Origin: Dastarcus helophoroides
Taxonomy: Eukaryota > Arthropoda > Insecta > Coleoptera > Bothrideridae
Assembly: GCA_028583605.1 (NCBI GenBank)
Contig: CM053326.1
Location: 33,636,931-33,700,930, forward strand
Reading direction: 5' to 3'
DNA: 64,000 nucleotides
Below, one piece after another: positions 2,345 through 62,252 of the stretch. The notes under the pieces are model-generated. The model had not been told where the DNA came from, ran no database searches, and worked only from the letters and a program-made list of their open reading frames with translations. A program made the position numbers and the translations under genes. Position 1 is the stretch's first letter; every line of letters starts with the position of its first letter.

Positions 2345-2558
2345 AAAAATTGAAATACAGAACTTGTCCCCTAAAACCAAGAAAGATTAAAAAACACCAT
2401 AAAGGTTGCTCTAACGCATTTCGACAGCCAAGCTGTCATTTTCAGAGAGAAACTGTTACCTTTGTTGTGTTTTTTAATCTTTCTTGGTTTCAGAGGACAA
2501 GTTCTGTATTTCAATTTTTAAAGATAACCAAGGACCAGTCCGTTCCATCAAAAATATA
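2345..2558. mobile_element. PLE1 3'-end element, head-to-head (palindromic) copy
   Basis: The left arm is the reverse complement of the PLE1 3' tail, from AAAATTGAAATACAG to the ribozyme-like segment. The right arm is the same tail in plus orientation and ends GTTCCATCAAAA. The left-arm hammerhead is damaged: on the minus strand the core reads CTGAAAA instead of CTGAAGA and ATGCG instead of ACGCG. The right arm has no ribozyme segment. Parent element: 46740-48598. Confidence 0.8.
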
Positions 2559-8289: not shown

Positions 8290-8557
8290 TTGGTGGAACG
8301 GACTTGGCCTTGGGTATCTTCAAAAATTGAAATACAAAATCTTGTCTCCTGAAACCAAGAAAGATTAAAAACACAACAAAAGTTGCTCTAACGCGTTTCG
8401 ATAGCCAAGCTATCATCTTCAGAGAGATACTAACACCTGATCCTAAAATTAACCCTTATATACTAAGAAAATTCACTTCGGTCGATCATCACTTCGATCG
8501 ATCATGCATGAATCTTTCTTGGTTTCAGGGGACAGGATTTGTAATTCAATAAACTTT
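8290..8557 (-). mobile_element. PLE1 3' end with part of the 3' UTR
   Basis: Minus-oriented, starting at GGTGGAACGGACTTGG (the element's 3' terminus). It continues through the hammerhead into AACCCTTATATACTAAG and AAATTCACTTCG, which match the 3' UTR of the parent PLE1 at 48410-48450 and so tie the short repeats to that element. The right edge carries a partial plus-oriented arm (AATCTTTCTTGGTTTCAG). Confidence 0.85.
8382..8427 (-). ncRNA. Hammerhead ribozyme, PLE1 type
   Basis: On the minus strand: CTCT, then core CTGAAGA, one extra T, stem II GATAGC/GCTATC with TTG loop, GAAA, the palindromic ACGCGT as minimal stem III, T at the cleavage position, and AGAG closing stem I. All core nucleotides are present. 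Confidence 0.7.
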
Positions 8558-11654: not shown

Positions 11655-11802
11655 CTTCAGTATTTCTCTGAAGATGATAGCTTGGCTATCGAAACGCGTT
11701 AGAGCAAGCATTGTTGTGTTTTTTCATCTTTCTTGGTTTTAGAGGACAAGATTTTTATTTCGGTTTTTGAAGATAGCCAAGGACCAATCCGTTTAACCAA
11801 AA
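11655..11802 (+). mobile_element. PLE1 3'-end element
   Basis: Ribozyme and tail in plus orientation, ending GACCAATCCGTTTAACCAAAA. The 5' edge is at TTCTCTGAAGATG, close to the ribozyme's own 5' boundary. Confidence 0.85.
11664..11708 (+). ncRNA. Hammerhead ribozyme, PLE1 type
   Basis: CTGAAGA at 11668-11674, stem II GATAGC/GCTATC, GAAA, ACGCGT, T, AGAG. Stem I is TTCT facing AGAG with one wobble. The core is intact. Confidence 0.68.
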
Positions 11803-34987: not shown

Positions 34988-35276
34988 TTTGGTGGAATGG
35001 ACTGGTCCTTGGTTATCTTTAAAGATTGAAATACAGAACTTGTCCCCTGAAACTAATAAAGATTAAAAAACATAACAAAGGTTGCTCTAACGCGTTTCGA
35101 TAGTCAAGCTATCATCTTCAGAGTATCTCTCTGAAGATGATAGCTTGGCTTCGTTGCTCTAACGCGTTTTGATAGCCAAGCTATTATCTTTAGAGAGTGT
35201 TTTTAATCTTTCTTGGTTTCAGGGGACAAGATTCGTATTTCAATTTTTGAAGATAACCAAGGATCAGTCCGTTCCA
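34988..35276. mobile_element. PLE1 3'-end element, complex rearranged copy
   Basis: The minus-oriented arm starts GGTGGAATGGACTGGTCCTT, then come a minus ribozyme, a truncated plus ribozyme, a second decayed minus ribozyme segment, and the plus-oriented tail ending CAGTCCGTTCCACAAAAA. Three ribozyme segments in one element suggest template switching. Confidence 0.85.
35081..35125 (-). ncRNA. Hammerhead ribozyme, PLE1 type
   Basis: Minus strand: core CTGAAGA, T, stem II GATAGC/ACTATC (one C-A mismatch next to the loop), GAAA, ACGCGT, T, AGAG. Confidence 0.62.
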
Positions 35277-35289
35277 CAAAAAAAAAAAA

Positions 35290-37164
35290 TGATTTGGAAA
35301 ATCAAAGCTTGAGGAAGTAAAATTAATATTCACATTCTGCAGAAAAACAATTATCTAATTCCACGTGGACGGAGTTGCGGCTAACAGGTAGTTTAAAATA
35401 AAAAAGTTAATACACTGCTTTCGGGATTATTTAACACAAGTTTGCAATATATGGCTTTAGTTGCACCCGTAACATGAGTATCGTTTCAAATTTGCAAATT
35501 CCTATTTTTTGAGAACTTGATCGAGATGTAGTTCATAACAGGACACAGTGCTGGTAAGTGGACGCTGCTTTATTTACATGGTGTTACTTTATGGCTACAA
35601 AATCATCGTAAAAAGTATTTTACAATGTAGTCGTACATAAAATGGTTCGATAGGCACTTACTTTCAATACATATTAGCACATTTAACTACCTTACATCAG
35701 TTTTAACTACGTATAGCATTGAAGATTTTTTTCTTAGTCGATAAAAGTAAAAGGTTCAGGGCCCTCTTTAGGTTCGGACGACAACAACTTAAGGTTAATT
35801 TCGAAATTTCAAGCTTTTGATTTCAAATTGTAAAAATTAAAATAATTATTAGAAATTTCGAGTTCAAGTACGAAAATTCTAAATCTTTGGGTCAAGTTTA
35901 AACCGCAGTTTCCAGAAATAAGTTGACAATTTTAATCATAAATTTGAAAGTTGAACGAAAAACATTTTCATTGTCATTAAATTTTTTGTTGAGATTTCAT
36001 TACTATTTGTGCTATAAATTTCTTAGTTTAGAGACTCTGTAACATGCTTTCGATTAAAAAAATGACGTTCCTTTTTACTAAGGGTCGCTGAATAGTCCTG
36101 ATTGTTGGAAATATCAGAATAAAAAGTTTTCCGACCTCTGCACTAGCTCGGATCCTTCCGTCTTTTAACGCAGCTTAAAAACTGAAAAAGGTGAACAAAT
36201 AAGTATCACATGAACCAAACTCTGCTCCTCTGCTGGGGATTTAGGGTAACAAAATTAGCGTGCTAGGAATAACTAATTTTGTTTTGTTGATATAAGATTA
36301 TACTTTATCAATTACTGCTTCTGATTCTAAGGCAAATAATGAAATTCCAGGAAATGGTTATGCCGGTCTATGTTTGCCAAATATATTATGTTGTTGTATT
36401 TAACATAAGGGTGTGTTTGAAATGCAAATTTATCAGTTAAATTATACCCAAAAGAACAAAATGCGAATGCTCCTATAGGAATGCAATTTATAGAAAGTGT
36501 GTTATTTTTCATATACTAACAGTAAATCAAACAGTATTTAATGATATCTCCTGCAATTAGAGTTGGAATGCTTTAACTTTCTGTAATTGATTTTGAATGA
36601 CCTAAGTGTCTGAGGCAGGTAGAAAGAAGTTACTAAACAATAGTTCTCAACACAAATCACGCATCCTGTAGGTGCCTTGTGGTTCTTAATCAAATAATTC
36701 TCAGTAGAAAGAATGTTCTACAAATGTCTATGATTACTGACTTTATATTTACCAAAATTAACAAATACATTTAGCAAAATTTTAGGAATGTATCTTCATT
36801 TCAGTGGACCATTTGGATGAGTGATGTTAACAGTCAACGAAATGTGGATCTCAACATCGGTGACTGAACATTCCATGTCAGATTATAATTCAAACTCTAG
36901 GCTTCCCAGTTTCCGGGATCGGGATTTCGAATATGGAATTTCGGGCTTCATGGAAAAAACTTCGGGAATTTGGGACTGGCTTCCAACTCCCGAATTATAA
37001 GTTATTTACTGTTCATTAATTAATAAATTGAAAAAGAGCATCTGAAAATATTTTTATTTACGTATTTTACGCATGTAGTTAATGTTATTAACAAAAAATT
37101 TAAGAATAAACAAATTATAGGTATCATTATATATACCCCCGTCATTATAACATTTTAAACATTG
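35290..37164. other. AT-rich intergenic DNA
   Basis: Less repetitive than the T-rich matrix, but no gene, RNA or element boundary could be supported. A GGGATCGGGATTTCG-type patch (36905-36985) resembles the patches at 33.0 and 33.7 kb. Confidence 0.45.
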
Positions 37165-37429
37165 CTGAGATAATAAGCCTTGTATATACGAATATATACA
37201 AGTTTATTACGATGCAATTGAAATCTAATTTCATTAGAATCTAATGAAAACCAGACTGCAATTGCAAAGTTCACGTAGATGAGGCAAAGCTTGTATCACA
37301 CGGGTTGCATTGCAACATCCATAGATACAAACGTCCTCGGCGTGACTTTACTTTCATCTAGTTTTGACAAATGACCAATTAAATGTTCTGTAATTAAACA
37401 ATTAAACGGGCTCAAAATTGAAAATATGT

Positions 37430-37492
37430 ACAACCGCAACCATAGACTAGTTTCGGCCTCCCTTGGCCTCATCAGCATGGTACGGTGGTTGT
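37430..37492 (-). ncRNA. Hammerhead ribozyme, type I, canonical core (unit 1)
   Basis: Minus strand, 63 nt: outer stem I ACAACC, internal loop, inner stem I ACCATG, core CTGATGA, stem II GGCC/GGCC with AAGGGA loop, GAAA, minimal stem III ACTAGT (self-complementary), C at the cleavage position, then TATGGT and GGTTGT closing both parts of stem I. Twelve stem I pairs and every invariant core base are present, with no extra base before stem II. Predicted cleavage is between 37445 and 37444. Confidence 0.85.
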
Positions 37493-37895
37493 ATAAACTT
37501 CCAACTTAAAGCCGTTAGTCAGTCATATAAGTACCCAAGAGAGTAAACCTCCATTGGATGACTTGTAACTGACTTTTAACTGTTTATTACGCAAACATTT
37601 TCACTACATGCTAATTGAAGCATTCTTCTCCGCTGAGATAATAAGACTTGAATATACGAATATATACAAGTTTATTACGATGCAATTGAAATCTAATTTC
37701 ATTAGAATGTAATGAAAACCAGTCTGCAATTGCAAAGTTCACGTAGATGAGGCAAAGCTTGTATCACGGGTTGCATTGCAACATCCATAGATACAAACGT
37801 CCTCGGCGTGACTTTACTTTCATCTAGTTTTGACAAATGACCAATTAAACTTTCTGTAATTAAACAGTTAAACGTGCTCAAAATTGAAAATATGT

Positions 37896-37958
37896 ACAAC
37901 CGCAACCATAGACTAGTTTCGGCCTTCCTTGGCCTCATCAGCATGGTACGGTGGTTGT
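37896..37958 (-). ncRNA. Hammerhead ribozyme, type I, canonical core (unit 2)
   Basis: Same fold as the unit 1 copy with one loop change (stem II loop AAGGAA). Predicted cleavage falls after position 37911 reading on the minus strand, so a transcript through both units would release a 466-nt RNA. Confidence 0.85.
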
Positions 37959-38008
37959 ATACACTTCCAACTTAAAGCCGTTAGTCAGTCATTATTTAGG
38001 CGAAAAAA

Positions 38009-41692: not shown

Positions 41693-41710
41693 TTAATTTC
41701 GAAAAAAAAG

Positions 41711-44182
41711 TCGAAATTTCGAGTTTCAAGTCGAAATTTCGAGTTTCAAGTCGAAATTTCGAGTTTCAAGTCGAAATTTCGAGTTTCAAGTCGAAATTTC
41801 GAGTTTCAAGTCGAAATTTCGAGTTTCAAGTCGAAATTTCGAGTTTCAAGTCGAAATTTCGAGTTTCAAGTCGAAATTTCGAGTTTCAAGTCGAAATTTC
41901 GAGTTTCAAGTCGAAATTTCGAGTTTCAAGTCGAAATTTCGAGTTTCAAGTCGAAATTTCGAGTTTCAAGTCGAAATTTCGAGTTTCAAGTCGAAATTTC
42001 GAGTTTCAAGTCGAAATTTCGAGTTTCAAGTCGAAATTTCGAGTTTCAAGTCGAAATTTCGAGTTTCAAGTCGAAATTTCGAGTTTCAAGTCGAAATTTC
42101 GAGTTTCAAGTCGAAATTTCGAGTTTCAAGTCGAAATTTCGAGTTTCAAGTCGAAATTTCGAGTTTCAAGTCGAAATTTCGAGTTTCAAGTCGAAATTTC
42201 GAGTTTCAAGTCGAAATTTCGAGTTTCAAGTCGAAATTTCGAGTTTCAAGTCGAAATTTCGAGTTTCAAGTCGAAATTTCGAGTTTCAAGTCGAAATTTC
42301 GAGTTTCAAGTCGAAATTTCGAGTTTCAAGTCGAAATTTCGAGTTTCAAGTCGAAATTTCGAGTTTCAAGTCGAAATTTCGAGTTTCAAGTCGAAATTTC
42401 GAGTTTCAAGTCGAAATTTCGAGTTTCAAGTCGAAATTTCGAGTTTCAAGTCGAAATTTCGAGTTTCAAGTCGAAATTTCGAGTTTCAAGTCGAAATTTC
42501 GAGTTTCAAGTCGAAATTTCGAGTTTCAAGTCGAAATTTCGAGTTTCAAGTCGAAATTTCGAGTTTCAAGTCGAAATTTCGAGTTTCAAGTCGAAATTTC
42601 GAGTTTCAAGTCGAAATTTCGAGTTTCAAGTCGAAATTTCGAGTTTCAAGTCGAAATTTCGAGTTTCAAGTCGAAATTTCGAGTTTCAAGTCGAAATTTC
42701 GAGTTTCAAGTCGAAATTTCGAGTTTCAAGTCGAAATTTCGAGTTTCAAGTCGAAATTTCGAGTTTCAAGTCGAAATTTCGAGTTTCAAGTCGAAATTTC
42801 GAGTTTCAAGTCGAAATTTCGAGTTTCAAGTCGAAATTTCGAGTTTCAAGTCGAAATTTCGAGTTTCAAGTCGAAATTTCGAGTTTCAAGTCGAAATTTC
42901 GAGTTTCAAGTCGAAATTTCGAGTTTCAAGTCGAAATTTCGAGTTTCAAGTCGAAATTTCGAGTTTCAAGTCGAAATTTCGAGTTTCAAGTCGAAATTTC
43001 GAGTTTCAAGTCGAAATTTCGAGTTTCAAGTCGAAATTTCGAGTTTCAAGTCGAAATTTCGAGTTTCAAGTCGAAATTTCGAGTTTCAAGTCGAAATTTC
43101 GAGTTTCAAGTCGAAATTTCGAGTTTCAAGTCGAAATTTCGAGTTTCAAGTCGAAATTTCGAGTTTCAAGTCGAAATTTCGAGTTTCAAGTCGAAATTTC
43201 GAGTTTCAAGTCGAAATTTCGAGTTTCAAGTCGAAATTTCGAGTTTCAAGTCGAAATTTCGAGTTTCAAGTCGAAATTTCGAGTTTCAAGTCGAAATTTC
43301 GAGTTTCAAGTCGAAATTTCGAGTTTCAAGTCGAAATTTCGAGTTTCAAGTCGAAATTTCGAGTTTCAAGTCGAAATTTCGAGTTTCAAGTCGAAATTTC
43401 GAGTTTCAAGTCGAAATTTCGAGTTTCAAGTCGAAATTTCGAGTTTCAAGTCGAAATTTCGAGTTTCAAGTCGAAATTTCGAGTTTCAAGTCGAAATTTC
43501 GAGTTTCAAGTCGAAATTTCGAGTTTCAAGTCGAAATTTCGAGTTTCAAGTCGAAATTTCGAGTTTCAAGTCGAAATTTCGAGTTTCAAGTCGAAATTTC
43601 GAGTTTCAAGTCGAAATTTCGAGTTTCAAGTCGAAATTTCGAGTTTCAAGTCGAAATTTCGAGTTTCAAGTCGAAATTTCGAGTTTCAAGTCGAAATTTC
43701 GAGTTTCAAGTCGAAATTTCGAGTTTCAAGTCGAAATTTCGAGTTTCAAGTCGAAATTTCGAGTTTCAAGTCGAAATTTCGAGTTTCAAGTCGAAATTTC
43801 GAGTTTCAAGTCGAAATTTCGAGTTTCAAGTCGAAATTTCGAGTTTCAAGTCGAAATTTCGAGTTTCAAGTCGAAATTTCGAGTTTCAAGTCGAAATTTC
43901 GAGTTTCAAGTCGAAATTTCGAGTTTCAAGTCGAAATTTCGAGTTTCAAGTCGAAATTTCGAGTTTCAAGTCGAAATTTCGAGTTTCAAGTCGAAATTTC
44001 GAGTTTCAAGTCGAAATTTCGAGTTTCAAGTCGAAATTTCGAGTTTCAAGTCGAAATTTCGAGTTTCAAGTCGAAATTTCGAGTTTCAAGTCGAAATTTC
44101 GAGTTTCAAGTCGAAATTTCGAGTTTCAAGTCGAAATTTCGAGTTTCAAGTCGAAATTTCGAGTTTCAAGTCGAAATTTCGA
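41711..44182. repeat. 20-bp satellite array, 123 apparently identical units
   Basis: Unit TCGAAATTTCGAGTTTCAAG repeats from 41711 to 44170 with no difference that I can see, followed by a partial unit. The unit contains the perfect palindrome TCGAAATTTCGA. Because the unit has no stop in any plus frame, an 873-codon open frame runs across it with a 20-residue period; this is a by-product, not a gene. Such uniformity means very recent expansion, strong homogenisation or an assembly artefact. Confidence 0.95.
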
Positions 44183-56119: not shown

Positions 56120-56366
56120 TGCGGAACATCAACATCAGACCGGACATAAGATTCTCTTTGATAATATTTCAATTATATCCAATATATCCAATTACTATAA
56201 TAGGAAGATAGGCGAGGCCATTGCAATCCAAAAATTCCCCAAAAACATCAACAGAGGACGACGGTTACATGCTTTCCTCCATCTGGAAACCAACCATCGG
56301 AAATCTTCGGGAGTAATTGCGCAGACGAATGGTATATAAAGTTTCCTTTTCTTTCTTTCCTCTCAG
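56113..56366 (+). pseudogene. PLE2 second copy, plus strand: end of GIY-YIG domain
   Basis: The frame reads SAIAEHQHQTGHKILFDNIS and KIGEAIAIQKFPKNINRG, the same region as 53950-54200 on the minus strand. It begins abruptly at a head-to-head junction with the terminal repeat of the minus-strand copy (about 56110) and is cut at 56366 by the LINE insertion; its terminal repeat continues at 58602. Confidence 0.82.
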
Positions 56367-58601
56367 TCAAACTGGACACAGTTCAGGGAGTATCTGGCAG
56401 CAAACCTGGAAGAGCCTGGAGAGATCAATACAAACGATGACATCAACACAGCGGTGGAAAGACTGGAAATCACCATAACAGATTCAATTCTGACTGCGAG
56501 CAAAACTTTCCGGCGTATAGAAGGAAGGGAACCACTGCCAAATCACTTGGTGGAGCTGATTAGAAGGAAAAATCGTGCCAGGAAGAGAGCAAGACGGACC
56601 AATCTGCAAGCAGATAAGGCGGAAGTCAACAGGCTCATCCACGAGCTCAGGTTTGAACTCAGAGACCACAAAATTTCAAAGTTTCAGGAACACCTAAGAA
56701 GTTGCAACCTCGAAACTTCATCAGATCACTGGCGCACAGCCAAAGCTCTAAGAGGAGTTAGGAAACCTATCCCTCCGATACACGGACCTCAAGGAATGGC
56801 TTACTCAGATCAGGAAAAGGCCGCAGCTTTTGCTGAGACCTTTGAACGACACTGTCAGGCCACACTTGAGGAAGTGGACTTAGACTTCGTAGACGAGGTG
56901 GAAGAAGAGGTACAATTTCTTCAGGAGGAAGTGCCAGAAGAAGACGACGTCATCCAGCCAACTAATGAGGAGGAAATCCAAAGCTTTCTGCGCAAGCTAA
57001 ATGTCAAAAAGTCTCCAGGTCCAGACGGAATTCCAAACCAAGCTTTGAAGTCTCTTCCGGACCAAGCTGTCAAATACTTTGAAGCAATAGTCAATTCCAT
57101 GTTTAAATTCCGGTATTTTCCAACCAGATGGAAGACTGCAAACGTTATCTTCATTCCTAAGCCAGGTAAGGATGGGAAATTCTCCCAAAATTACAGGCCA
57201 ATCAGCCTCTTATCCAACCTGGGTAAGGTGGCGGAAAGGATTTTGAGGAAGCGTCTGCAGAATATCATCAGCGATCGCGACATCATTCCTAAGGAACAAT
57301 TTGGGTTCCAAACTATGCACTCTACCTCAGACCAACTGCTGAGAGTGGTTGAAACAATCACTCAACGCATGAACTGGAACCAGGTAGTTGGAGCTATTTT
57401 CTTCGATATCTCCAAGGCATTTGACACAGTTTGGCATCAAGGATTAGTCTTCAAGATGCACCAGTTTGGAATACCTCTAACAATGGTTCAAATGGTAAGC
57501 TCATTCCTGGACCAGCGCTCTTTCAGAGCAAAGGTGGGACAGGAACTATCAAACCAGTTTAGGTTACAGTATGGGGTGCCTCAAGGTTCTGCCTTGTCAT
57601 CTCTGCTGTATTCTCTGTTCACAGCAGACATTCCGAGAACCAATATAACAACCGACAACACCTTATTGGCAACTTACGCAGATGACACAGCTTTAGTGGC
57701 GTACTCTTTCAGCCCAGAAGTGGTCACCAGACGACTTTAGGAGGCAACAGACAGTCTACTAGATTACTTTGGCCAATGGAGAATCCAAGTCAACTCAGAC
57801 AAGACCCAAGCAGTCTTTTTCACTCGAAGAAGACTCCAACCATATGGACATGTAAATGTTCATGGGCAAAACGTCGACTGGAGACTTCAGGCAAAGTATC
57901 TAGGTATCATTCTAGACAAAAGAATAACATTCCAGGCACACAACGATTATGCACTGTCCAGAGCCAAAATGCTGAAGGGACTGCTGCAAGCGATGATTGG
58001 TAGAAATAGTAACCTGTCCATTGGACTTAAAGTGTTACTATACAAATCAATCATAAGACCAGCGATGACCTACGCATCTGTAGCTTGGTCACAAGCGACG
58101 GATTATCAGATGAAGAAACTCCAGGTGTTCCAGAACGTCTTCCTAAGACAAGCCATGGACGCTCCATGGTTTGCGAGAAACAATCAGCTCCATAGAGAAG
58201 CTAAACTACCTTTGGTAAGAGATTTTCTTAGGGAAATTAATTCCAGGGCGATGGTGAGAGCGGAAACGCATCCCAACGAACTAGTTCGACAGGCAGTGGA
58301 TTACGATCCAGACATCCCAACCAGAATTAGGAGACCAAGGATGGTCCTCTAGGCTAAGACTTTCATCGTGAAAATTTTCTGTTTTGTTTGTTCTTATGTT
58401 TCAGGCAAAACAGCTTACAACAGTGCTCCAGCACTATTGTACTGTTCCGACGGAGGGATTGGGGGCCAAGGGCCCGGCCCGAAGAAGTAGGGGTTTTTAG
58501 TCGGTACCCGTCGTTTGAGCGGAAGTCCGACACTATCTGGGTTATCTTCCCAGATGTGCGTAAAGCATTTTCCCCTACTTTAACAAAAAAAAAAAAAAAT
58601 T
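56367..58601 (+). mobile_element. 5'-truncated jockey-like LINE inserted in PLE2
   Basis: Flanked by CTCTCAG on both sides (56360-56366 and 58602-58608), with a 15-A tail at 58585-58599. It contains the RT part of ORF2 and a GC-rich 3' UTR (GGGGGCCAAGGGCCCGGCCC, AGTCCGACACTATCTGGG). The endonuclease domain and ORF1 are absent. All features fit a single target-primed insertion. Confidence 0.9.
56370..58352 (+). pseudogene. LINE reverse transcriptase, one in-frame TAG away from open
   Basis: One frame runs from NWTQFREYLAANLEEPGE to the terminal IRRPRMVL stop at 58352 and is broken only by TAG at 57738-57740. RT motifs in order: VKKSPGPDGIPNQALK, NVIFIPKPGK, NYRPISLLSNLGKVAE, FFDISKAFDTVWHQGL (motif A), YGVPQGSALSSLLYSLF and TYADDTALVAY (catalytic). 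After the TAG: WRIQVNSDKTQAVFFTRRR, KYLGIILDKRITF and the thumb and C-terminal region. The TAG could come from CAG by one transition. There is no ATG near the start because the 5' part was never copied. Jockey-clade assignment rests on motif style; the low decay indicates the youngest LINE copy in the window. Confidence 0.9.
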
Positions 58602-59225: not shown

Positions 59226-59492
59226 TGTGGATCGGACTGGTCCTTGATTATCTTCAAAAATTGAAATACAAATCTTATTCCCTGAAACCAAGAATGATTC
59301 AAAAACACAGCAGAGGTTGCTCTAACGCGTTTCAATAGCTAAGCTGTCATCTTCAGAGAGATACTACTACGGTATCTCTCTGAAGATGATAGCTTGGCTA
59401 TCGAAACGCGTTAGAGCAATCTTTAGTGTATTTTTTAATCTTCCTTGGTTTTAGGGGACAAGATTTGTATTTCAATTTTTAACGATAAGTCA
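59226..59492. mobile_element. PLE1 3'-end element, palindromic copy
   Basis: The left arm is minus-oriented from TGGATCGGACTGGTCCTTG; the right arm is plus-oriented and ends TTTGTATTTCAATTTTTAAC. The two ribozyme segments meet at GAGAGATACTACTACGGTAT. The minus one has stem II mismatches (GACAGC facing GCTATT); the plus one is intact. Confidence 0.87.
59373..59420 (+). ncRNA. Hammerhead ribozyme, PLE1 type
   Basis: TATCTCT, CTGAAGA (59380-59386), T, GATAGC/GCTATC, GAAA, ACGCGT, T, AGAGCAA. Core and all stems intact. Confidence 0.7.
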
Positions 59493-59818
59493 ACTGATAT
59501 TCAGTGGCGTACATGGTTTTTGTAATGGGGGTAGATTTGAAACTTTATTTTAAATCCAAATTTTAAATAAATAAATAAGTTTTAAATCTACATAATATAC
59601 TAAAGTTGTTCCATTTGGCTTTTTCACTTTGTATATTTCTTATGTTTTAAAAAAGTGTAATTTTTTTATGATGTATTATATTTTGAATAGTTCGATATGT
59701 ATCAAGTGTATTCATACATTAGGTTGAAATAGCATTTAAATTTATTTTCTGAGACATCGTTGTCTTATCATAACGTTCGACTGTCGCAATTGTTATCATT
59801 AGGTTGCCGATACCCGTT

Positions 59819-59900
59819 GACGAGGTGGCCGAGTGGTTAAGGCGTTGGACTGCTAATCCAATGGGCTCTGCCCGCGTGGGTTCGAATCCCATCTTCGTCG
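59819..59900 (+). tRNA. tRNA-Ser(GCT)
   Basis: An 82-base tRNA cloverleaf without intron. Acceptor GACGAGG pairs with CTTCGTC (one G-T) plus discriminator G. A box TGGCCGAGTGG. The anticodon arm TTGGA-CTGCTAA-TCCAA gives anticodon GCT, reading AGC/AGT serine codons. It has the long variable arm typical of class II tRNAs (GGGCTCTGCCC) and B box GGTTCGAATCC. TTTT follows about 10 bases downstream as an RNA polymerase III terminator. Confidence 0.97.
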
Positions 59901-60214
59901 AACGAAAATGTTTTGTCCTGTGAAGGACAATTAATTGAATAACCATGACTCTTCACATCCGCGTACGAAATCTGATATAATCATGGATAAAAATTAATTG
60001 AATCCCATGAAGCAAGGTGAAATATGTGCCGAGTATATGGTTCTTGTTACAAGTTTTTTTTCTGCAGTTTTATAAAATATTGTACTTTTCATGAATCCAT
60101 GTGTCTCACAACGAACTGCATTGATGTTTTTTTCCAAAAAATAGTATTTACTTTTTAAGGCGTCATAAATGAATGATAACCATCGCAACTGTTATCATAT
60201 TATCGACATACGTT

Positions 60215-60296
60215 GACGAGGTGGCCGAGTGGTTAAGGCGTTGGACTGCTAATCCAATGGGCTCTGCCCGCGTGGGTTCGAATCCCATCCTCGTCG
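60215..60296 (+). tRNA. tRNA-Ser(GCT), second copy
   Basis: Differs from the 59819 copy by one base in the acceptor stem, which here pairs perfectly (GACGAGG/CCTCGTC). Starts 396 bases downstream of the first copy. Flanking bases (TTATCAT before; TGTTTTGTCC after) are partly shared, so a local duplication made the pair. A TTTT terminator follows. Confidence 0.97.
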
Positions 60297-60571
60297 AGCG
60301 AAGTGTTTTGTCCTTGCAAGGATAACTACTTAAATACAGATTCTGCTACATCTGTGTTAAAAAAAAAGCTAATGTATACAAATCAGATTTTGAAAATATA
60401 CCTGAAATATTTGTGAGACTTCGAGACTATAACGTATGTGCATTTATATTTTGGTTACAAATTCTTTATTTTCGTAATTTTATAAAATGTTGCTCTCTTT
60501 ACATAAATCTACATAGGTTAAAATTAATTAATGTATATTCATCAATTCTTTAATGCTATACATACATATAG

Positions 60572-60702
60572 TTTCTCTCTGAAGATGACAGCTTGGCTGA
60601 AGAAATGAGTTAGAGCAACCCTTGTAGTGTTTTTTTAATCAGGGGACAAGTTCTGTATTTCAATTTTTGTAGATAACCAAGGACCAGTCCGTTCCACCAA
60701 AA
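60572..60702 (+). mobile_element. PLE1 3'-end element with 10-bp target duplication
   Basis: Flanked by ATACATATAG (60562-60571 and 60703-60712). The insert starts TTTCTCTCTGAAGATGACAG, exactly at the 5' side of the ribozyme's stem I, and ends GTTCCACCAAAA. The ribozyme is broken: after GGCTG the GTCGAAACGCG segment has become AAGAAATGAG. A deletion also removed the TTTCTTGGTT segment. Confidence 0.92.
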
Positions 60703-61880: not shown

Positions 61881-62170
61881 AACGAAATGTTTTCTTTTCC
61901 GAAGGATGATTTTTGACATCTGCATAAAAAATGTAATGAACTAATCATGGATAAATGATTGAAGATATGGAAGCAACGTGGAATTTATGCCGAGCAGAGA
62001 CTTGTGCCGAGTCTGACCACCTATATGCTTCTTGTCACACATCTTTTATTTCTACAATTTTATAAAATAATTCTATAATTCTTGTGAAAAGTGATTTTTC
62101 TATCTTCAGCCTTAGAGCTTTGGCTTTTTTAATGTAGAGATAAGCATTTCTTGAGTAATAAAAATTACTG

Positions 62171-62252
62171 CGACGAGGATGGGATTCGAACCCACGCGGG
62201 CAGAGCCCATTGGATTAGCAGTCCAACGCCTTAACCACTCGGCCACCTCGTC
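62171..62252 (-). tRNA. tRNA-Ser(GCT), third copy, minus strand
   Basis: The minus strand has the same 82-base sequence as the 60215 copy with a perfect acceptor stem (GACGAGG/CCTCGTC). The terminator TTTTT lies downstream on minus (62158-62165 region). It is inverted relative to the other copies, and the flanks are not shared. Confidence 0.97.

Follow-up and report, generated by a model that had tools for sequence, protein, structure and literature searches.

How does an element that encodes no protein, and that carries two predicted hammerhead ribozymes in direct repeat, come to be inserted in a beetle genome? The question is raised by a locus within 64,000 nucleotides of Dastarcus helophoroides DNA, the whole of which we refer to as the window, where a first-pass annotation had described a retrozyme-like repeat without an ORF, possibly of a new family. 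The retrozyme-like reading is supported, since a search of the host genome found further 466-bp tandem copies, and no frame of 100 amino acids or more lies across the window copy. By its anatomy, as read from the sequence, the window copy is a non-LTR retrozyme, and we consider it probable that it is an old member of a young family of animal non-LTR retrozymes that has very likely been active in recent times and would spread by the cycle set out below. The parts of the window copy are as follows, q being the position in the monomer and q1 falling at window position 37164.

37164..37992, minus strand: one-armed retrozyme insertion of 1.78 tandem 466-bp monomers; RNA sense is minus, no ORF
37164..37631, minus strand: monomer 1, 468 bp through a 2-bp insertion, most of the family having 466
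37632..37992, minus strand: monomer 2, partial, covering q1 to roughly q360, with the RNA-sense 5' end at its right edge
37159..37168, minus strand: E1, q -4 to 5, where the window copy has its outer 3' end; putative RT start site
37359..37373, minus strand: E2 region, q 194-208, internal in the window copy; putative second RT start site
37422..37494, minus strand: type I hammerhead 1, expected cleavage between 37445 and 37444
37888..37960, minus strand: type I hammerhead 2, expected cleavage between 37911 and 37910
37445..37910, minus strand: 466-nt RNA expected between the cleavage sites from sequence coordinates, circularisation presumed
37179..37202, minus strand: TTCG-capped 10-bp hairpin near E1, from the sequence and the consensus fold

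The direct repeat (37164-37526 against 37632-37992, about 97% identity) stands as first annotated, but the 362-bp unit assigned to it is not a natural boundary, the true monomer being 466 bp. An LTR reading of the 362-bp repeat was rejected because at other genomic places the sequence runs on as a 466-bp tandem. The window copy ends through 5' truncation, diverges by 4.1% from the family consensus and consists of a single arm with its outer end at E1, having neither a TSD nor a second inverted arm. A plasmid collection searched with the element gave no match. Elsewhere in the window lie a perfect 20-bp minisatellite of 124 copies (41708-44182, 100% matches), open in three frames, and three neighbouring tRNA-Ser(GCT) genes on the minus strand (59818-59901, 60214-60297 and 62170-62252).

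Both hammerheads claimed for the minus strand are present, 466 bp apart, each with the core CUGAUGA, a 4-bp stem II (GGCC/GGCC), GAAA, C17, a minimal ACUAGU stem III and a bipartite stem I with an internal loop. In the numbering that gives C17, position 7 of the hammerhead core is free. The covariance check that had been proposed agreed in part: the Rfam model Hammerhead_HH9 matches both, with 22.1 bits (E 0.014) at 37422-37494 and 25.5 bits (E 0.0011) at 37888-37960, but both scores fall well under its gathering score of 52, and for that reason neither hammerhead appears in a whole-window scan at the gathering threshold. The coordinates place exactly 466 nt between the two expected cut sites, as had been predicted, and we infer that the hammerheads would cut a transcript into units of this length, each of which would then close into a circle. 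The TTCG-capped hairpin, also annotated at first pass, is shared by the first unit and the family consensus; the second unit differs from it by one base.

That the hammerhead is no chance motif follows from a search of the host genome (538.9 Mb in 50 contigs) with a 31-nt pattern leaving two positions free, which gave 1,110 exact matches (560 + 550) against 0 for the reversed pattern. A search with the element itself returned at least 115 matches, the best 40 of 2052 first-look candidates having been scored, and these were grouped into 40 places including the window copy, the 39 others being retrieved and parsed. The 40 places are the best matches to the window copy, with a bias to long copies; four later places, chosen for closely spaced hammerheads on opposite strands, bring the total parsed to 44. 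Monomers of 466 bp were found at all 40 places, on 12 contigs, and successive full monomers are spaced by 466 bp in 66 of 72 cases and by 460-468 bp in the remainder, with larger deletions in some older monomers (L057, L059, L064). The arrays are dispersed, run from 1.6 to 7.4 monomers, and keep the hammerhead core intact in 125 of the 134 monomers that span it, while 19 well-formed monomers chosen to build the consensus differ from it at 0-8 positions each. Arms of monomers at 40/40 places, as far as the arms were examined, leave unsupported the alternative that the unit is the terminal repeat of a coding element. The genomic hammerheads are of two types, CUGACGA, which is the consensus of the young arrays, and CUGAUGA, to which the window copy, itself older, belongs; the two types suggest successive waves.

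The anatomy of the insertions points to the way in which they were made. Of the 44 insertions, 32 have two oppositely oriented arms built of tandem monomers, and in the two-armed members of the first 40 (28/40) a plus arm is followed by a minus arm, so oriented that the RNA 3' ends face outward and the 5' ends meet inside. The outer ends cluster at two points of the monomer about 199 nt apart along the RNA, E1 at about q -4 to 5 and E2 at about q 194 to 208, and one E1 is paired with one E2 in 30 of the 32 two-armed insertions (26 of the 28 from the first 40), with no E1/E1 or E2/E2 pair among the 32 parsed. The exceptions among the 28 pair E1 with q293 (L042) and E1 with q227 (L063), both without a TSD. 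The pairing was put to a prediction test on the four later places, all of which have one E1 and one E2, with TSDs of 9-14 bp. The one-armed insertions, 12 of the 40 with the window copy included, end at E1 in seven cases, at E2 in four and at q25 in one. A TSD of at least 9 bp (mode 12) flanks 27 of the 40 places, comprising 24 of the 28 two-armed and 3 of the 12 one-armed insertions, against 3 of 400 mismatched flank pairs; the other 13 places have none of 9 bp. Preference for AT-rich targets was considered and is not supported, because the flanks (72% AT) are nearly as AT-rich as the TSDs (74%), the window as a whole having 68%.

Two other routes by which such an element might spread are to be weighed against this anatomy. 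Amplification as DNA, as a satellite or extrachromosomal repeat in which the hammerhead is incidental, would suit the 466-bp tandem units and has a parallel in the hammerhead satellites of cave crickets (PMC2837043, in its available text), yet where a satellite has long local arrays without insertion signs we find dispersed short arrays with TSDs at 27 of 40 places, inverted arms and two fixed outer ends, and the near-complete retention of the core (125/134) also tells against it, so that we hold this route to be very improbable. Mobilisation by a LINE enzyme of Jockey or L1 type with twin priming gains something from a non-LTR RT within the window (56340-58352). Twin priming by L1 leaves inverted 5' pieces, with the RNA 3' end at one side of the insert only and a variable boundary at the opposite side, whereas 30/32 two-armed insertions here are bounded by two fixed outer ends that differ from each other; no poly(A) tail was seen at the inspected insertion ends, and local Penelope-like insertions follow the same plan as the retrozyme. 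We therefore regard a LINE as a distinctly unlikely mover. The RT at 56340-58352 looks Jockey-like by eye and has one internal stop.

The inner ends and the lengths of the arms bear on the form of the template. Arms average 1077 nt when they start at E1 and 711 nt when they start at E2, ranging from 47 to 2077 nt, and the 56 inner ends of the 28 two-armed insertions are spread over the monomer, although not fully uniformly (KS p 0.008), with a mild excess in q280-373 (20/56 against 11.3 expected). At q279, the run-off point set by the ribozyme, no pile-up was seen (1/56 against 1.6 expected), and a linear template of unit length was rejected on this absence of excess at the cleavage point. Snap-back of a single cDNA was likewise rejected as the rule, since just 2 of the 28 have arms whose inner ends are no more than 10 nt apart. 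The inner junction is identical in L042 and L050 and nearly so in L078 (q352 with q415-420), at unrelated sites, which suggests a hot spot of template switching and may mark a hairpin where copying jumps.

Private variants indicate that both arms of an insertion derive from one RNA sequence, since they recur in both. The two arms could be compared for 224 substitutions. Every monomer of the two arms carries 78 of these, and 122 are limited to a single monomer; 9 occur in both arms without reaching every monomer, and 15 recur in several monomers but in one arm only. Cross-arm agreement reaches 86/224 (38%), whereas 1000 permutations averaged 7.3% and never exceeded 13.3%, and in the 21 two-armed loci of less than 2% divergence it is 53/113 against 7.5% permuted. 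For the 92 substitutions confined to a single locus, 9 reach every monomer of the two arms and another 4 occur in both, the rest being in one monomer (70) or in several monomers of one arm (9). The single-monomer variants fit later mutation. The longest array, L071, has one shared substitution over 7.4 monomers, and L073 has none over 2.9. Within one arm, the L068 and L074 arrays each show two variant types of monomer, a mosaic look, as if the template had switched between two RNAs or gene conversion had followed later.

A single RNA sequence behind both arms is, on these sequences, best explained by a circle that was copied repeatedly. The same two-sided insertion could also have used a linear, multimeric read-through transcript with no circle at all, which is attractive in that the source loci are themselves tandem arrays and would give multimeric transcripts, and in that the authors who purified a Penelope-like enzyme conclude, in the available text of PMC11167929, that unprocessed, uncleaved RNA is its main substrate in vitro. 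The mosaic arrays L068 and L074 lean the same way, as would the 122 single-monomer variants in so far as some of them could be inherited differences. An aged array, however, would transmit its differences between monomers, whereas 78 of the 224 variants are in all monomers and only 24 lie in classes intermediate between all and single; uniformity extends over arms as long as about 4.5 monomers (L071), and private variants are common to both arms. We judge the linear transcript unlikely, though the least so of the alternatives considered. To the more specific proposal, that the RNA circle is a two-headed template of which a Penelope-like dimer grips two loops and copies from both edges of a staggered cut, for up to several rounds each, we give an even chance. 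Such a template would explain both the presence of one arm per start site and the private variants common to the two arms.

The predicted fold of the circular RNA is compatible with two exposed start sites. The consensus folds as a circle at -169.1 kcal/mol, where 100 dinucleotide shuffles give -100.6 +- 5.4 (z -12.6), and the energy rises by 8.4 kcal/mol when those hammerhead pairs permitted by the model are imposed. Mean unpaired probability is 0.71 at E1 (96th percentile) and 0.84 at E2 (99th), compared with 0.26 overall; the minimum-energy fold places q0-3 (E1) and q196-202 (E2) inside hairpin loops, most outlying positions of the two ranges being paired. E1 and E2 are thus predicted to be loops of a strongly folded RNA. 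A modelled circle so strongly self-paired would also suit a self-replicating, viroid-like RNA that is copied into the genome now and then, and the copying of RNA into RNA has been put forward as a possibility in retrozymes (PMC7229834, accessible text), but the window scan found the hammerhead on one strand only and more than 1000 genomic matches suffice as a source, so this origin appears highly unlikely to us.

Candidate helpers for an inserted retrozyme are present in the same genome. GIY-YIG matches number at least 91 at E below 0.001, the best 150 of 1070 candidates having been scored. Seven Penelope-like loci were examined (L051-L055, L075 and L076, with L075 selected for its opposed GIY-YIG matches), two of which, L054 and L055, have RT and GIY-YIG frames; the L054 frame has 225 relatives, the named ones among the 120 listed being mostly from insects. 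Three loci (L052, L075, L076) are clearly two-armed, their 3' ends facing outward and each arm having its own end point; the two points are 29 nt apart in L052 and 33 nt in L076 (both by BLAST ends) and 39 nt in L075. Their candidate TSDs are of 11 bp in L075, of 9 bp with 18 unassigned bases beside it in L052, and a weak 8 bp with 16 unassigned bases in L076. A distant inverted repeat is present in L053, and no coding second arm was seen in L051, L054 or L055. L075 carries a hammerhead-like motif upstream of its ends. Similarity to E1 or E2 in the examined loci amounts to short weak matches, barring an unrelated, diverged retrozyme fragment in L055, and sequence comparison matched the retrozyme to no particular Penelope-like family, for which reason we can only infer the helper enzyme. 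Within the window, CTCTGAAGATGATAGC...GAAACGCGTTAGAGC-like repeats at 2408-2447 (minus), 8385-8424 (minus), 11666-11705 (plus), 59378-59417 (plus) and 60577-60616 (plus) match the hammerhead-like region of the L075 element and are Penelope-like remnants; some window remnants form inverted pairs (59356 minus with 59380 plus; 35000-35269).

We propose the following cycle as the one that most reasonably fits these observations. Tandem copies would be transcribed on the minus strand, the transcript would be cut by its hammerheads to 466-nt units, and the units would be closed into circles. An enzyme of Penelope-like type would then cut both strands of the target about 12 bp apart, and each free DNA 3' end would serve as a primer from which the RNA is copied, starting at a fixed loop that would be E1 for one edge of the cut and E2 for the opposite edge. 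Copying would proceed from 0.1 to 4.5 times round the RNA, after which the two cDNAs would be joined 5' to 5' at variable points. Both the mover of animal retrozymes and the circle as template have so far been hypotheses, Penelope-like helpers having been proposed in PMC7229834 (accessible text). The many near-identical insertions of this family make start sites, number of rounds and identity of the template readable from the genome. Their footprint supports a mode of copying in living animals that starts internally and proceeds from two sides, and the family predicts two RNA start sites that are open to testing with purified enzyme. The window element thereby offers a direct handle on the spread of ribozyme elements.

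Among known systems, the annotated kinship with plant and animal retrozymes holds for the animal non-LTR kind, but there is no LTR layout and most insertions add an inverted arm. As described in the accessible text of PMC7229834, animal non-LTR retrozymes share with our family a type I hammerhead per unit, tandem non-coding repeats, the lack of an LTR layout, a TSD of more than 4 bp, low GC and a strongly self-paired predicted circle, their repeats being 150-450 bp compared with 466 nt here. Plant LTR retrozymes (PMC4918200, PMC7761336, PMC7229834, each in its available portions) likewise have a hammerhead, no coding capacity and a presumed circular RNA, but their hammerhead is of type III and they carry LTRs of ~350 bp, a PBS, a PPT and a 4-bp TSD, in contrast to the type I hammerhead, tandem monomers and ~12-bp TSD found here. 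The pDo500 repeat of Dolichopoda cave crickets is also an insect tandem repeat of ~500 bp with a hammerhead; the available text of PMC2837043 presents it as satellite DNA and gives no insertion structure. The accessible text of PMC7229834 contains no description of two-armed insertions with a fixed pair of start sites, and the word 'inverted' is absent from its main text; we found no earlier account of such a footprint in the open-licence literature.

The closest likeness in manner of insertion is to EN+ Penelope-like elements. A classical Penelope-like insert has an inverted repeat, a 9-10-bp TSD and a one-sided tail (PMC3846280, available text), and the purified enzyme cuts both strands, extends each of them and begins copying at two internal sites (PMC11167929, available text). 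Judged by the accessible portions of these two papers and by L052, L075 and L076, such elements and the retrozyme have in common direct and inverted arms with outward 3' ends, a short TSD, an extra tail on one arm, a hammerhead upstream of the start and an internal RT start inside a stem loop; direct and inverted copies, two alternative 3' ends and a short TSD are the pattern in 30 of the 32 two-armed retrozyme insertions. The distance from the hammerhead cut to the start is 85-92 nt for the lizard enzyme, as computed from the available text of PMC11167929, and about 72-86 nt for E2, but for the purified enzyme the authors saw no difference between the two strands in start site, whereas one E1 is paired with one E2 here. 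The retrozyme also differs from Penelope-like elements in lacking an ORF (no 100-aa frame in the window copy), in start sites ~199 nt rather than about 29-39 nt apart, in a hammerhead with a canonical 4-bp stem II and in the several rounds made of a small unit. Its insertion works like that of a Penelope-like element, but the retrozyme is not one. The suggestion of a new family is thus upheld for a young non-LTR retrozyme family with a Penelope-like insertion signature: the kind of element was already known, and new here are the two-armed footprint with its two start sites and the private variants that the arms share.
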